A stretch of 64,000 nt of DNA from Ruminococcus sp. FC2018 (GTDB lineage: Bacteria; Bacillota; Clostridia; Oscillospirales; Ruminococcaceae). Location: the NCBI RefSeq assembly GCF_000621805.1, contig NZ_JHXH01000001.1, forward strand, positions 186,001-250,000, given 5' to 3'. Positions 11,951 to 22,684 of the stretch are shown here, piece after piece (positions within the stretch are counted from its first letter, which is position 1; the number at the start of each line of letters is the position of its first letter). Below the pieces are notes generated by a model. That model saw only the letters and a list, made by a program, of their open reading frames with translations, did not search any database and was not told where the DNA came from. A program made the position numbers and the translations under genes.

Positions 11951-12757
11951 TTGGATTGCCCAAAATGCGGTAAAAAAATCGGCGATAATGATAATGTCTG
12001 CTCAAACTGCGGCGTTGTTATAAAAGAGAATGTCGATAATACAAAGCTTTCCACTAAGCTTTTCGGAAAGAAAAATGTAAAAAAGAATCCGCTTGCCACA
12101 TCGAAACTGGGCAAGACCGAAAAGCTGCGCAGCAAGTTTGGTATGAAGCATCTGAAGATAATCCTTGTCGTAGCAGCTGTGCTGATTCTGATTGCTCTTA
12201 TTGTAACTCTCGTGGTCTCTATCTCAAGCGGCAAGGGAAGAAAGCTTGCGAGAAATACCGCCGAGTATCTTGGAAAAACAGTAGCGGTCGCAGAATCAAA
12301 GCTTGACGAACACTTTAAGGATAAATCTGCTTTTTCAGGTCTCAATAAAGCCCTGGAGTTTGACTATGTCCGGGAGAGCGAGGACTCTGTAAAGGTTGAC
12401 GGAATGACATATCCCGAATGGGCAGTGCTGGTAAAGGTGAATAAGCAGCAACAGATACAGAGTGTTAAGTATTGCGATTTCAAACTGCTTAAAAAAGACG
12501 TCAGGGGAGTAAAGTGCGATAAGTTTATTAACCTTGAAAGATTTGACGAGGGCGCAGATTACAGCAAGGTCAATGCCGAGATCGACATAGATCCTTATTC
12601 CATAAGCTATTCCGAAAAGTTTGTGACATACCGTTACAGGTACTGGTTTGAGAACGATTCCGGTGACCAGCAGCAGGTGGTGCTTGATGTTTCCTACGAC
12701 AGTGACAACCACTTCCTGTATTATTCCTCAAATATGGTTTATCCCGAAAATCTGTAA
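11951..12757 (+). CDS. Zinc-ribbon single-pass membrane protein of unknown function
   Basis: This 268-residue protein starts at TTG 11951 behind AGGGGAGGGG; no ATG precedes the zinc ribbon. Residues 3-20 form a ribbon with two CxxC knuckles (CPKCGK and CSNCGV). A basic cytoplasmic linker follows, then one membrane segment (about 73-96, LKIILVVAAVLILIALIVTL). The rest is an extracellular domain of about 170 residues rich in Lys, Asp and Tyr. I do not recognise the outer domain. The architecture of zinc ribbon, membrane segment and outer domain is common in Clostridia. It has its own promoter and terminator. Confidence 0.85.
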   Translation: MDCPKCGKKIGDNDNVCSNCGVVIKENVDNTKLSTKLFGKKNVKKNPLATSKLGKTEKLRSKFGMKHLKIILVVAAVLILIALIVTLVVSISSGKGRKLARNTAEYLGKTVAVAESKLDEHFKDKSAFSGLNKALEFDYVRESEDSVKVDGMTYPEWAVLVKVNKQQQIQSVKYCDFKLLKKDVRGVKCDKFINLERFDEGADYSKVNAEIDIDPYSISYSEKFVTYRYRYWFENDSGDQQQVVLDVSYDSDNHFLYYSSNMVYPENL

Positions 12758-14479: not shown

Positions 14480-14508
14480 TTGACTTGCTGACAAATATTT
14501 GTTATGAT
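14480..14508 (+). promoter_or_regulatory. Promoter of the PASTA pseudokinase gene
   Basis: TTGACT (14480-14485) and TATGAT (14503-14508) have a 17-bp spacer. Confidence 0.85.
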
Positions 14509-14542
14509 AAGATGATAATTTATGTAGATAAGGAGGTTCGGT

Positions 14543-16399
14543 ATGGATCCACGTAATGAGCTTTGTATGGGTTGTATGAACGAGTTGGATTCAAACGGAC
14601 AGTGTCAGTATTGCAGTTATACTGAAAATATTCCGCACCTGCAGGCATATCTTGCACCCAAAACAGTGCTTGACAATAGATATATCATAGGTAAAATGCT
14701 TTCCTATAACGGTGAGGGCGCTTCCTATATCTGTTACGATATGGTGAGCAAATGCAAATGTGTCTGTCGTGAATATATGCCCGATACCCTTTGTGAAAGG
14801 GACAGCGAGACCCAGGATCTTATTGTTAACAAAGACTGTCTTGCAAAATATAAGACCTTTATGTCCGAATTTGCTGATGTGAACAGGTCGCTTTCAAAAA
14901 TGAGAAATCTTCATCACATCGCTACAGCAAGGGATATGTTCAATGCAAACAATACGACATATGTTATTCTGGAGTATGTTGAGGGTGTCTCGCTGAAGAA
15001 GTTTCTTCAGTCCAATACAGGGTTTTTGTCCTGGGAACAGGTCAAAAAGCTGTTTGTACCTTTGTTTACCACCCTTAGCATCATACATAATGCAGGTATA
15101 ATTCATAGGGGAATATCGCCCGAGAATATTATTGTCACAACCGACGGCGAACTGAAGCTTACAGGCTTTTGTATAAGCTCCATAAGAACGTCCAACACAG
15201 GTCTTATCCCCGAGTTCTATTCCGGATATACCGCTCCGGAGCAGTATTCGTCCCTTGAATGGCAGGGCACCTGGACAGACGTTTATGCTATTGCGGCGGT
15301 AATTTATAGGATACTTACCGGCTGTATGCCTCTTGATGCACAGACAAGAACGAAAAATGATACCCTCGTTGAGGCTGCAAGGATAAATCCTCGTATTTCT
15401 CCCCACATCTCAAGAGTTATAGCCAAGGCTATGGCTGTAAGAGGTGCGGAAAGAATACAGACTGTTACCGAGTTTGTCTCTGCGCTCTTTGAACCACGCT
15501 CAAGACAGCGCATTGAAATGGAGAAGGGCTCTACACAGACTATACCCATTTATCATCCGCCACGCAATCGCCGTGAGCCGCAGCGTGAAAGACCTGTACC
15601 TCAAAGGCAGGAAAGACCGGTCAAGAAAAAGAATAACACAGCCCTTATCGTTGGCTGGGTCGTTATCGCACTGGTGCTGGGACTTTGTATCTTCCTGTTG
15701 TATCTGCTTTTCTCCGGACCTTCAAAGAATGATGATTCATCTTCGTCTGTTGTTATTGTGGACTATACTCCCGAAAGCAGCCAGAGCGAATCTTCAAAGC
15801 CGGATGATTCATCTTCACAGTCTGACAGCAGCGAGGAAGGTCTTGGCGAGGGCGCAATAATGCCTAATATGGTGGGCGTAAGGATAGACGTTGTAAAACA
15901 GCAGATCGCTAATAACTTTGATCTGAAAATAGACTATTTCTTCTCCGATGAAGATGAGCGCAATATAGTTTATGAACAGAGTATCCCCGAGGGTACAAGC
16001 TATGACCCGGCAAAGAAGAATGTGCTTGTGCTTAAGGTGTGCTCCGGACCTGAAAATGTTAAAGTCCCCAATTATTACGGAGTTGACCAGAAGTCTTATC
16101 TCGACCAGCTTAACGAGCTGAATATAAAGTATAAGGTGTCTGAGGTCTACGGAAGCCAGAAGGCAGGATCTATTCTGGGAACAAGCGTAGTTCCCGGTAA
16201 TAAGATCAATGTCAAGAAGGGCGATGTGCTTGTGGTTTACGTCTCTGACGGAAAGAATACTACAGTTGCTACCACTACCAAGGAATCTGATACCGAGGTG
16301 GTTACAAAGCAGACTAAAGCCACCCAGGCGCAGACTAAGCCTGCCCAGCCGACCCAGGCTCAGACTCAGGCTCAGCCCCAGAATAATCAGCAGCAGTAG
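14543..16399 (+). CDS. Membrane PASTA protein with a zinc ribbon and a degenerate Ser/Thr kinase domain (probable pseudokinase)
   Basis: This 618-residue protein has, in order, an N-terminal zinc ribbon (Cys8, Cys11, Cys21, Cys24), a protein-kinase fold (about 45-315), a basic Pro/Arg linker, a membrane helix (about 365-391) and a Ser/Asp-rich stalk. Two PASTA repeats (about 439-507 and 508-575) and a Thr/Gln-rich tail complete it. The fold is intact (HNAGIIHRG, APEQY, WTDVYAI), but three catalytic positions are changed. The ATP-binding Lys is Arg76 (VCREYMP), HRD is HRG (Gly190), and DFG is GFC (208-210). Asn195 is kept. It is likely a pseudokinase that senses muropeptides through PASTA; PrkC-like signalling by phosphorylation is unlikely. 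AAGGAGG precedes ATG 14543. Confidence 0.9.
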   Translation: MDPRNELCMGCMNELDSNGQCQYCSYTENIPHLQAYLAPKTVLDNRYIIGKMLSYNGEGASYICYDMVSKCKCVCREYMPDTLCERDSETQDLIVNKDCLAKYKTFMSEFADVNRSLSKMRNLHHIATARDMFNANNTTYVILEYVEGVSLKKFLQSNTGFLSWEQVKKLFVPLFTTLSIIHNAGIIHRGISPENIIVTTDGELKLTGFCISSIRTSNTGLIPEFYSGYTAPEQYSSLEWQGTWTDVYAIAAVIYRILTGCMPLDAQTRTKNDTLVEAARINPRISPHISRVIAKAMAVRGAERIQTVTEFVSALFEPRSRQRIEMEKGSTQTIPIYHPPRNRREPQRERPVPQRQERPVKKKNNTALIVGWVVIALVLGLCIFLLYLLFSGPSKNDDSSSSVVIVDYTPESSQSESSKPDDSSSQSDSSEEGLGEGAIMPNMVGVRIDVVKQQIANNFDLKIDYFFSDEDERNIVYEQSIPEGTSYDPAKKNVLVLKVCSGPENVKVPNYYGVDQKSYLDQLNELNIKYKVSEVYGSQKAGSILGTSVVPGNKINVKKGDVLVVYVSDGKNTTVATTTKESDTEVVTKQTKATQAQTKPAQPTQAQTQAQPQNNQQQ

Positions 16400-21748: not shown

Positions 21749-22684
21749 ATGGCTAATTTTACAGGCGCAAAATGCATTGTCTGTGAACAGACCTTCAAGG
21801 ACGGCGATGACGTTGTTGTGTGCCCTGATTGCGGCACACCGTATCACCGTGAATGTTATAAGCAGGCGGGTAAATGTGTTAATGATGAGCTTCATGCAAG
21901 CGGCGAGGCATGGAAGAAAACGGCTCAAGAAGGCGGCGAAGGAATAAGATGCAGCCGGTGCGGCTTTAATAACGATAAAGATAAGCTTTTCTGCGAAAGC
22001 TGCGGCACACCCCTGAATACGACCGGTTCTAACAAGACCAGTTCGTTTAACGAGCCTAAACCGGGAGAGGGCAACACTAACAACGGTCGTGTTGAGTTCT
22101 CACCGTTTGGAGAAAGAACTGTCTACGATAAAGATTCTGTTATTGACGGGATAAAGCTTGAGGATTATGCGGGGTATGTCAAGTCAAATCCCTTTACATT
22201 TCTTATGAGCTTTATAAGATTCGGTAAATATGGCGGAAAGCTATCGCTGAATATCGGTGCTTTTCTGTTCCCGGAGGTTTATTTCCTTTTCAGGAAAATG
22301 CGCCTTGTTGGTATTATCTCCCTGATCGTGTGTGCAGCTCTCACCGTTCCGCTTATGATCGCTCAGTTTGCTGTGGGATACGCAGGGATAAAGATAGGCT
22401 TTTCCTTTGATGTTACAGGTAAGACGTTCACCGTGATCGCTGATATGTGTTGGTACGGTCTTATGGTGTGGAGGATATTCTCCGGTCTGCTCGCTAATTA
22501 TCTGTATTACAAAAAAGCAAAAGGCGATATCAGCAGGATAAGGGAAAGCTCTGACGCAGAGCAGGAAGTTAAGGAGAGGATAGCTGCAAAGGGCGGCGTA
22601 TCCTGGCCTGCTGCCATTGTCGGATACGGATTTTTCTGCAGCCTTGTTCTGGGTGTTGTGTTCCTGTTCAACAGGTTGCTTTAA
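21749..22684 (+). CDS. Membrane protein with prokaryotic RING-like and zinc-ribbon domains
   Basis: This 311-residue protein starts with a RING-like Cys/His cluster (CIVCEQ, CPDCGTPYHRECYKQAGKC; residues 9-43), the pattern called prokaryotic RING finger family 1. A zinc ribbon with CSRCGF and CESCGTP (about 70-88) and a Gly/Asn linker follow. At least three membrane segments lie between about 150 and the C-terminus. The role is unknown; such proteins are common in Ruminococcaceae and may be membrane scaffolds (inference). The start is ATG 21749. A TATAAT lies at 21704-21709 but its -35 is poor. Confidence 0.85.
   Translation: MANFTGAKCIVCEQTFKDGDDVVVCPDCGTPYHRECYKQAGKCVNDELHASGEAWKKTAQEGGEGIRCSRCGFNNDKDKLFCESCGTPLNTTGSNKTSSFNEPKPGEGNTNNGRVEFSPFGERTVYDKDSVIDGIKLEDYAGYVKSNPFTFLMSFIRFGKYGGKLSLNIGAFLFPEVYFLFRKMRLVGIISLIVCAALTVPLMIAQFAVGYAGIKIGFSFDVTGKTFTVIADMCWYGLMVWRIFSGLLANYLYYKKAKGDISRIRESSDAEQEVKERIAAKGGVSWPAAIVGYGFFCSLVLGVVFLFNRLL

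Follow-up and report, generated by a model that had tools for sequence, protein, structure and literature searches.

A conserved PASTA-repeat pseudokinase in Ruminococcus sp. FC2018 and related gut bacteria

Cell-wall sensing by kinases in Gram-positive bacteria depends mainly on the PASTA kinases. The window analysed here, a 64,000 nt stretch of Ruminococcus sp. FC2018 (contig NZ_JHXH01000001.1, positions 186,001 to 250,000; assembly GCF_000621805.1, a 2.4 Mb genome that is 99.57% complete), carries at 14543..16399 a gene for a 618 amino acid (aa) protein that joins two PASTA repeats to a kinase fold with its catalytic residues missing; all feature coordinates refer to the window and its forward strand unless noted. 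The protein is almost certainly not a classical kinase, and its residues indicate that the fold is very likely unable to phosphorylate. Related gut bacteria keep it in this 'dead' form, and it therefore probably works by binding partners. An earlier note on the window had called the protein a pseudokinase, a label that is well supported because the catalytic loss goes back to an ancestor, extends across the family and persists under purifying selection; that note's interpretation as a whole is partly supported.

Loss of catalytic sites from the kinase fold

Three catalytic sites are altered: the ATP-binding β3 Lys is replaced by R76 (14768..14770, where CVCREYMP begins at residue 73), the catalytic base is lost by the change of HRD to HRG at residues 188-190 (15104..15112, within HRGISPEN at 188-195), and the metal-binding Asp is lost by the change of DFG to GFC at residues 208-210 (15164..15172). 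The earlier note had named these losses and the retained catalytic-loop Asn, with correct residue numbers for Arg76 and Asn195, and had proposed a homologue alignment as the check on them. When phmmer aligns the protein to PpkA, a kinase of solved structure, R76 falls on the Lys of KEYMP, G190 on the HRD Asp and G208 on the DFG Asp, and the three losses are real. A kinase fold with the β3 Lys, HRD Asp and DFG Asp all missing agrees, in fold and residues, with the general description of a pseudokinase.

Two further changes had been missed. In particular, V113 (14879..14881) occupies the αC Glu column, both in the alignment of relatives and in that to PpkA; of 50 active relatives, 46 have Glu in this column, whereas none of 116 HRD-lost relatives does; theirs is mostly Leu, Met, Val or Tyr, with Asp in one. 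With R76 and V113, both partners of the Lys-Glu bridge are therefore gone. E109 was considered as a retained αC Glu and rejected, because the alignment places that column at 113, one turn of the helix further on. Moreover, the glycine loop is degenerate, reading SYNGEG at residues 54-59 (14702..14719) where active relatives have GxGGFG.

The framework of the domain is kept, as had been claimed. N195 (15125..15127), APEQY with its APE motif (15233..15247), TDVYAI, Asp246 and a 26-residue activation segment from GFC to APE are all present. The AlphaFold2 model is a kinase fold whose best Foldseek match is PpkA (5hnv), with VIA-align Z-scores of 23.7 for PpkA (root mean square deviation 3.5, 267 residues aligned), 23.3 for S. 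aureus Stk1 and 23.1 for PknA. Its mean predicted local distance difference test score (pLDDT) is 66 over the whole chain, and the model was left out of arguments on residue geometry because most of the activation loop scores below 50.

Family of HRD-lost relatives and their origin

A family profile extracted 136 distinct proteins, after copies identical over residues 6-300 had been collapsed; the sample was drawn with the pseudokinase's own profiles, so its ratio of lost to intact sites is not a population figure, and neither the per-sequence nor the pairwise counts given below are independent. The HRD Asp is absent from 115 of the 136, replaced by Gly (105), Ala (8), Leu (1) or Glu (1). Among these 115, 87 have Arg and 22 have Lys at the β3 position (H, C and Y also occur there), the DFG Asp is kept in 12, and the catalytic-loop Asn is kept in 69 and replaced by Thr or Ser in 46. 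In contrast, the 21 HRD-intact proteins all keep the DFG Asp and the Asn. According to an in-house profile, 112 of the 115 have at least one PASTA repeat; two of the three exceptions are cut by contig ends, and the third (L082) is weighed below. Contig ends truncate the sequences L104, L081 and L040. The loss in the 618 aa protein goes beyond chance, because that of the HRD Asp is common to the whole family examined.

These counts bear on whether the protein is a still-active kinase with displaced catalytic residues. Such a kinase would fit the retention of N195, APE, Asp246 and the 26-residue segment, and the β3 Lys or DFG Asp of some relatives; however, the base is missing from 115 of 115 and the αC Glu from 116 of 116 HRD-lost relatives, and no common acid takes over at the HRD position, where Gly prevails and Glu appears once. 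This explanation is very improbable.

The tree was built from 85 rows, with the glycine-loop, β3, HRD-to-Asn and DFG columns removed, and was rooted at its midpoint. Even without the catalytic columns, 53 representative pseudokinases form one clade (support 100/99), and the rows nearest to it are active zinc-ribbon kinases, not PrkC; the position of PrkC itself is unsure because of the midpoint root and a single long PrkC branch. The HRD Asp changes twice on this tree (in the pseudokinase clade and, separately, in L225), compared with 11 changes for the β3 Lys, 9 for the DFG Asp and 13 for the Asn. These counts are most naturally explained if the catalytic base went first, in one early event, and the remaining sites eroded repeatedly afterwards. 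The tree suggests that the pseudokinase family most likely descends from zinc-ribbon kinases, with the Asp lost once, in the ancestor of the present carrier families.

A second pseudokinase was observed at L225:1-861 (minus strand, where the fetched stretch ends), in genome G543 of family f33 from the same class. There, zinc-ribbon kinases stand in a tandem row, and one copy has lost HRD and DFG separately (HGNIRPEN, LTGFYN), an independent second origin. Further, several large active zinc-ribbon kinases of 826-1364 aa (L226, L227, L181, L207 and L090) carry 3-8 PASTA-like repeats by the in-house profile. The combination of zinc ribbon and PASTA may thus also exist in a catalytically intact form.

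Spread among genomes

Within the order, 83 of 297 genomes were matched at 1e-60, comprising 33 from the source organism's own family (f1), 31 from family f24, one from f23 and 18 others. The best matches in the f1, f24 and f23 genomes all lack the HRD Asp, and the three inspected among the 18 others (G088, G184 and G265) are all active kinases. The pseudokinase is therefore found in 33 of 33 sampled genomes of its own family and in 31 of 32 of f24, where the 32nd (G178) gave a 160 aa N-lobe piece, possibly at a contig end. In the own genus it is present in 27 of 29 genomes; the remaining two, G008 (90% complete) and G010 (70%), gave no pseudokinase-like match beyond active-type frames (L091 and L092 inspected). 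Most genomes have one prominent match of about 540-640 aa, and their other matches score like active paralogues, of which some were inspected (L181, L226 and L227 among them).

Across the class, 28 of 293 genomes were matched at 1e-75, 11 in f1 and f24 and 17 elsewhere, with 13 of these inspected. From the class search 30 proteins were extracted (5 from f1 or f24 genomes), and 27 have both HRD and DFG; the exceptions are the degenerate L225 copy, L224 (HKD, with a shifted DFG column) and a partial L207 frame (HRD, with a shifted DFG column). Sightings of a PASTA pseudokinase are thus confined to f1, f24 and f23, although 15 of the matching order genomes and 4 of those in the class lie outside the inspected set. 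Viral contigs gave five weak relatives at 26-27% identity.

Selection on the pseudokinase domain

The ratio of nonsynonymous to synonymous rates (dN/dS) for the domain lies between 0.006 and 0.029 in ten genus pairs, of which 8 are estimable; for the pocket motifs it is 0-0.008 (6 estimable), and dN is zero in 8 of the 10 pairs. The pseudokinase domain is thus under strong purifying constraint, which is weaker than that on the active kinase domain of PrkC. Over 78 pairs from 13 genomes, kinase-domain identity is 85.8% for the pseudokinase versus 92.3% for PrkC, and for the PASTA part the values are 55.8% and 62.9% (one of the 13 PrkC matches, G009, carries an in-frame stop, and only its open frame was used). 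The idea that the pseudokinase is the more conserved of the two was rejected, as its domain has the lower dN in one of the 78 pairs. The inside half of the pseudokinase is far more constrained than its outside half.

Degeneration of an old kinase into a pseudogene, or its chance drift, would leave several catalytic residues lost, as is seen here; however, there is no internal stop in any match listed from the own-genus and order searches, dN/dS is far below 1, the loss is ancestral, and the gene is present in nearly all sampled genomes of two families, so that this explanation is scarcely credible. The frozen pocket could instead have been repurposed for nucleotide sensing, ligand binding or another transfer chemistry, as in SelO or SidJ. 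Its motifs are almost unchanged within the genus although most pairs are almost saturated at synonymous sites, the β3 Arg and Asn195 are kept there, and bacterial pseudokinases with new activities have been described (PMC12599244; for this and the other papers cited, statements refer to the available portions of the text). Yet the letters vary family-wide, both at β3 (R, K, H, C or Y) and at the Asn, and they count against a shared new chemistry because a shared set of residues would be expected. Repurposing is accordingly improbable, though well ahead of pseudogene decay or displaced catalysis.

Protein architecture

The protein begins with two CxxC pairs (residues 8-24) and continues with the kinase fold (44-316), a linker (317-365), a transmembrane (TM) helix (366-390), a Ser-rich spacer and two PASTA repeats (439-490 and 506-569). 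The CxxC-x9-CxxC motif (C8, C11, C21 and C24; 14564..14614) is at least 90% conserved across 39 diverse members and invariant in another alignment. It agrees with the zinc ribbon that had been placed in front of the kinase, though Pfam makes no such call in the 618 aa protein and the label rests on the conserved Cys pairs. The pseudokinase domain (14672..15490) is defined by Pfam Pkinase (91.3 bits against a cut-off of 31.7, residues 112-328), the model and the fold comparison. The TM helix (15638..15712) is predicted from hydrophobicity and appears in the model as helix H366-390. Behind it, as the earlier note had proposed, two PASTA repeats lie outside: both match PF03793 above its cut-off of 23.2 bits, the first (15857..16012) with 25.1 bits and the second (16058..16249) with 33.9, and the Pfam scan gives the two PASTA stretches 48.9 bits. 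The NF033483 equivalog (PrkC/Stk1) scores 161.7 bits, below its cut-off of 450, and no NCBIfam model exceeds its own cut-off for this protein.

The gene has an ATG start preceded by the ribosome binding site AAGGAGG at 14531-14537. A σA-like promoter, TTGACT-17 bp-TATGAT, was read directly from the sequence at 14480..14508; it suggests that the pseudokinase gene has a transcription start of its own.

Comparison with known systems

The PASTA kinases PrkC, Stk1 and PknB (NF033483) share with the 618 aa protein a cytoplasmic kinase fold, one TM helix and extracellular PASTA repeats, and the Z-score of its model to S. aureus Stk1 is 23.3. In contrast to them, the pseudokinase has no catalytic residues, has an extra zinc ribbon, and has a kinase domain nearer to the zinc-ribbon kinases. 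The Clostridia zinc-ribbon Ser/Thr kinases (VAIKEYFP/HRDISPDN/IDFGA; PpkA-like) have the zinc ribbon, the REYMP/KEYMP and EQY motifs, the neighbouring tree group and the best structural match in PpkA in common with it, whereas they keep their catalytic residues and mostly lack PASTA; by the in-house profile, PASTA scored in 7 of the first 21 HRD-intact proteins, and four of these are PrkC-type.

Two described proteins offer precedents. The first is the mycobacterial MviN/MurJ (family ActPs3), a membrane-linked pseudokinase in cell-wall control whose tail is phosphorylated by the PASTA kinase PknB and then recruits an FHA protein (PMC12599244, PMC6180346). In MviN the pseudokinase is joined to a putative lipid II flippase, and its family has an activation-loop deletion, whereas the 618 aa protein has PASTA repeats, no flippase domain in the Pfam scan and an undeleted 26-residue segment, and no FHA domain was found in many of the genomes. 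The second is C. difficile CD2148, likewise a second Hanks-type protein with a damaged catalytic loop and a link to PrkC: its catalytic D and N are replaced by Ser, it does not autophosphorylate, it is phosphorylated by PrkC in vitro, and it modulates the PrkC-dependent phosphorylation of CwlA (PMC9674922). CD2148 differs in lacking PASTA, and its authors state only that a pseudokinase cannot be excluded (PMC9674922).

A 2025 review annotates seven families of bacterial pseudokinases (PMC12599244). The DYD pseudokinases of Actinobacteria and Firmicutes resemble the 618 aa protein in the change of β3 Lys to Arg, the missing αC Glu and membrane association, but they have a DYD motif and keep HRD and/or DFG (PMC12599244), where this protein has HRG and GFC. 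ActPs2 (β3 Arg, HRN, and DFG deleted in most) shares the Arg only, as HRG and an undeleted GFC are found here. The GLW family has GLW in place of HRD, where this protein has HRG; CP1 has a linked COG3899 domain and no TM helix, where this protein has a TM helix and PASTA and no COG3899 domain in the Pfam scan. In the available portions of the review, in which the word PASTA occurs once, no PASTA-repeat or clostridial zinc-ribbon pseudokinase was found described (PMC12599244). Full-text literature searches, with subscription journals largely outside their scope, found no description of a PASTA pseudokinase either, and none of the titles and abstract openings among the matches listed names one.

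Proposed function and the PrkC pathway

The leading proposal, held tentatively and at slightly less than an even chance, is that the protein is a cell-wall-sensing, non-catalytic PASTA receptor that modulates PrkC signalling. The two extracellular PASTA repeats would bind peptidoglycan or lipid II, by analogy with the PASTA family, and the single TM helix would relay the state of the wall to a cytoplasmic kinase fold lacking the base, the metal Asp, the β3 Lys and the αC Glu. The inside half would then act as a docking or allosteric surface, possibly aided by the zinc ribbon and a juxtamembrane motif, and its likeliest client would be intact PrkC with its phosphatase, either through pairing or with the pseudokinase as a regulated substrate or scaffold. 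By analogy, the PrkC pathway is suggested as the partner because of the shared PASTA logic, a locus in genus g138, and the MviN and CD2148 precedents. The earlier note's wall sensor that signals by binding is likewise a reasonable reading, given two PASTA repeats, a TM helix and a dead pocket, whereas a version of it with an FHA reader is not general.

A second, intact PASTA kinase, which the earlier note had suggested looking for, is present in the source genome: PrkC at G000:C17, with VAVK, HRDIKPQN, DFG and three PASTA matches. A PP2C phosphatase gene adjoins prkC there, and IreB is encoded at C6. In genus g138, the pseudokinase gene directly follows an rlmN-prpC-prkC-rsgA(-thiN) run in 3 of 3 sampled genomes, with thiN in two (Pfam gave the gene names in L166, clustering those in L168 and L169).

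The juxtamembrane motif, K-G-[SA]-T-Q-T-I-P-[IV] at residues 328-336 (15524..15550), is a candidate phosphothreonine or docking site. In 47 sequences, the mean frequency of the commonest residue is 0.87 for the motif (328-335); the kinase domain has 0.81 and the remaining linker positions have 0.36. The TQTIP motif is present in the own genus and in several other genera of the own family. Of 54 genomes, 32 gave an FHA domain, as did 12 of 23 from the own genus. Since the other 11 of these 23 have none, an MviN-FhaA-style readout is not general, and an FHA reader of TQTIP was rejected as the general mechanism. The own IreB begins MYDQTVEF, and Thr7 of ReoM is a PrkA site (PMC7286690); the likeness of TQTIP to this PASTA-kinase site was set aside as a hint only, as the shared Q-T-hydrophobic is too little to weigh.

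The only FHA protein found in the source genome belongs to a second phospho-signalling set at G000:C2:61406-65599 (L075), where genes for a PP2C phosphatase, an active zinc-ribbon kinase (954 aa) and a double-FHA protein stand in a row.

Several observations weigh against a PrkC-linked wall receptor. Nearly every genome of the order has PrkC (276 of 297), and its co-occurrence with the pseudokinase therefore carries almost no information and was rejected as evidence of partnership. Further, a search at 1e-100 gave no PrkC in 2 of the 17 genomes searched (G004, 83% complete, and G006, 91%), although both have the pseudokinase. The adjacency to prkC occurs in one genus only, with gaps of 101-290 bp, and the downstream neighbours in g138 are common to genera without that adjacency. 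TQTIP is missing from several branches of the family, some of which have another Thr-containing stretch nearby, and it is kept in all 11 own-genus genomes in which no FHA domain was found. The relative L082 (381 aa) stops after the TM helix and has no PASTA. Lastly, Arg at β3 is compatible with nucleotide binding.

A more specific form of the proposal is possible but doubtful. It holds that a PASTA pseudokinase of ancient origin, found in two or more families, forms a membrane receptor pair with PrkC, a bacterial counterpart of known kinase-pseudokinase pairs, and tunes how PrkC responds to the state of the cell wall; it would have arisen separately from PrkC, from a PASTA-bearing zinc-ribbon kinase that lost its catalytic Asp.

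Genomic neighbourhood

Neighbours were counted at 97 loci (L084, L137 and L182 were dropped from 100, as simple gene calling lost the kinase gene), of which four (L178-L181) are active-kinase loci. In Ruminococcus and near genera, a frequent order is a zinc-ribbon/TM gene, the pseudokinase gene and pfkA; at 28 loci pfkA is no more than three genes away, on the downstream side in 26 of these. In the window, the upstream gene (11951..12757) encodes a 268 aa protein with a zinc ribbon, a TM helix and an extracellular domain, a conserved neighbour and possible partner. Its model is confident in the extracellular domain, most of which has pLDDT above 90; the best Foldseek E-value is 0.019, with no match at or below 0.001, and the weak rows include several BamE/OsmE entries.

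The pseudokinase could be a wall receptor or scaffold independent of PrkC, which pairs with the 11951-12757 protein or with other zinc-ribbon membrane proteins. Both proteins share a layout of zinc ribbon, TM helix and extracellular part, and a zinc-ribbon/TM gene stands within two genes upstream on the same strand in 26 of the 97 loci, directly before the pseudokinase gene in 18. However, this neighbour was not seen in 71 loci (four with active kinases, and some truncated at contig ends); in the window, an opposite-strand LCP-family gene intervenes, and the pseudokinase gene has promoter-like sequence of its own. A PrkC-independent role is unlikely, though a possibility of some substance.

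Among the other neighbours, a YebC/TACO1 gene lies directly upstream on the same strand in 7 of the 97 loci (L080, L083, L126, L128, L139, L141 and L158, in f24 and f23), Pfam-named in L080 and in the same cluster in the other six. Elsewhere in the window, a gene at 21749-22684 (forward strand) encodes a protein in which a zinc ribbon and a DUF2628-like membrane part come after a RING finger of the prokaryotic type (PF14446, 99.2 bits).

Implications

The pseudokinase could be mistaken in annotation for a Stk1-family kinase. As a vertically inherited family, it offers a means of asking what selects a kinase fold after catalysis is gone. If the protein is a wall-sensing receptor as proposed, a second, non-catalytic PASTA receptor in nearly all sampled genomes of two gut families would redraw the PASTA-kinase pathway.

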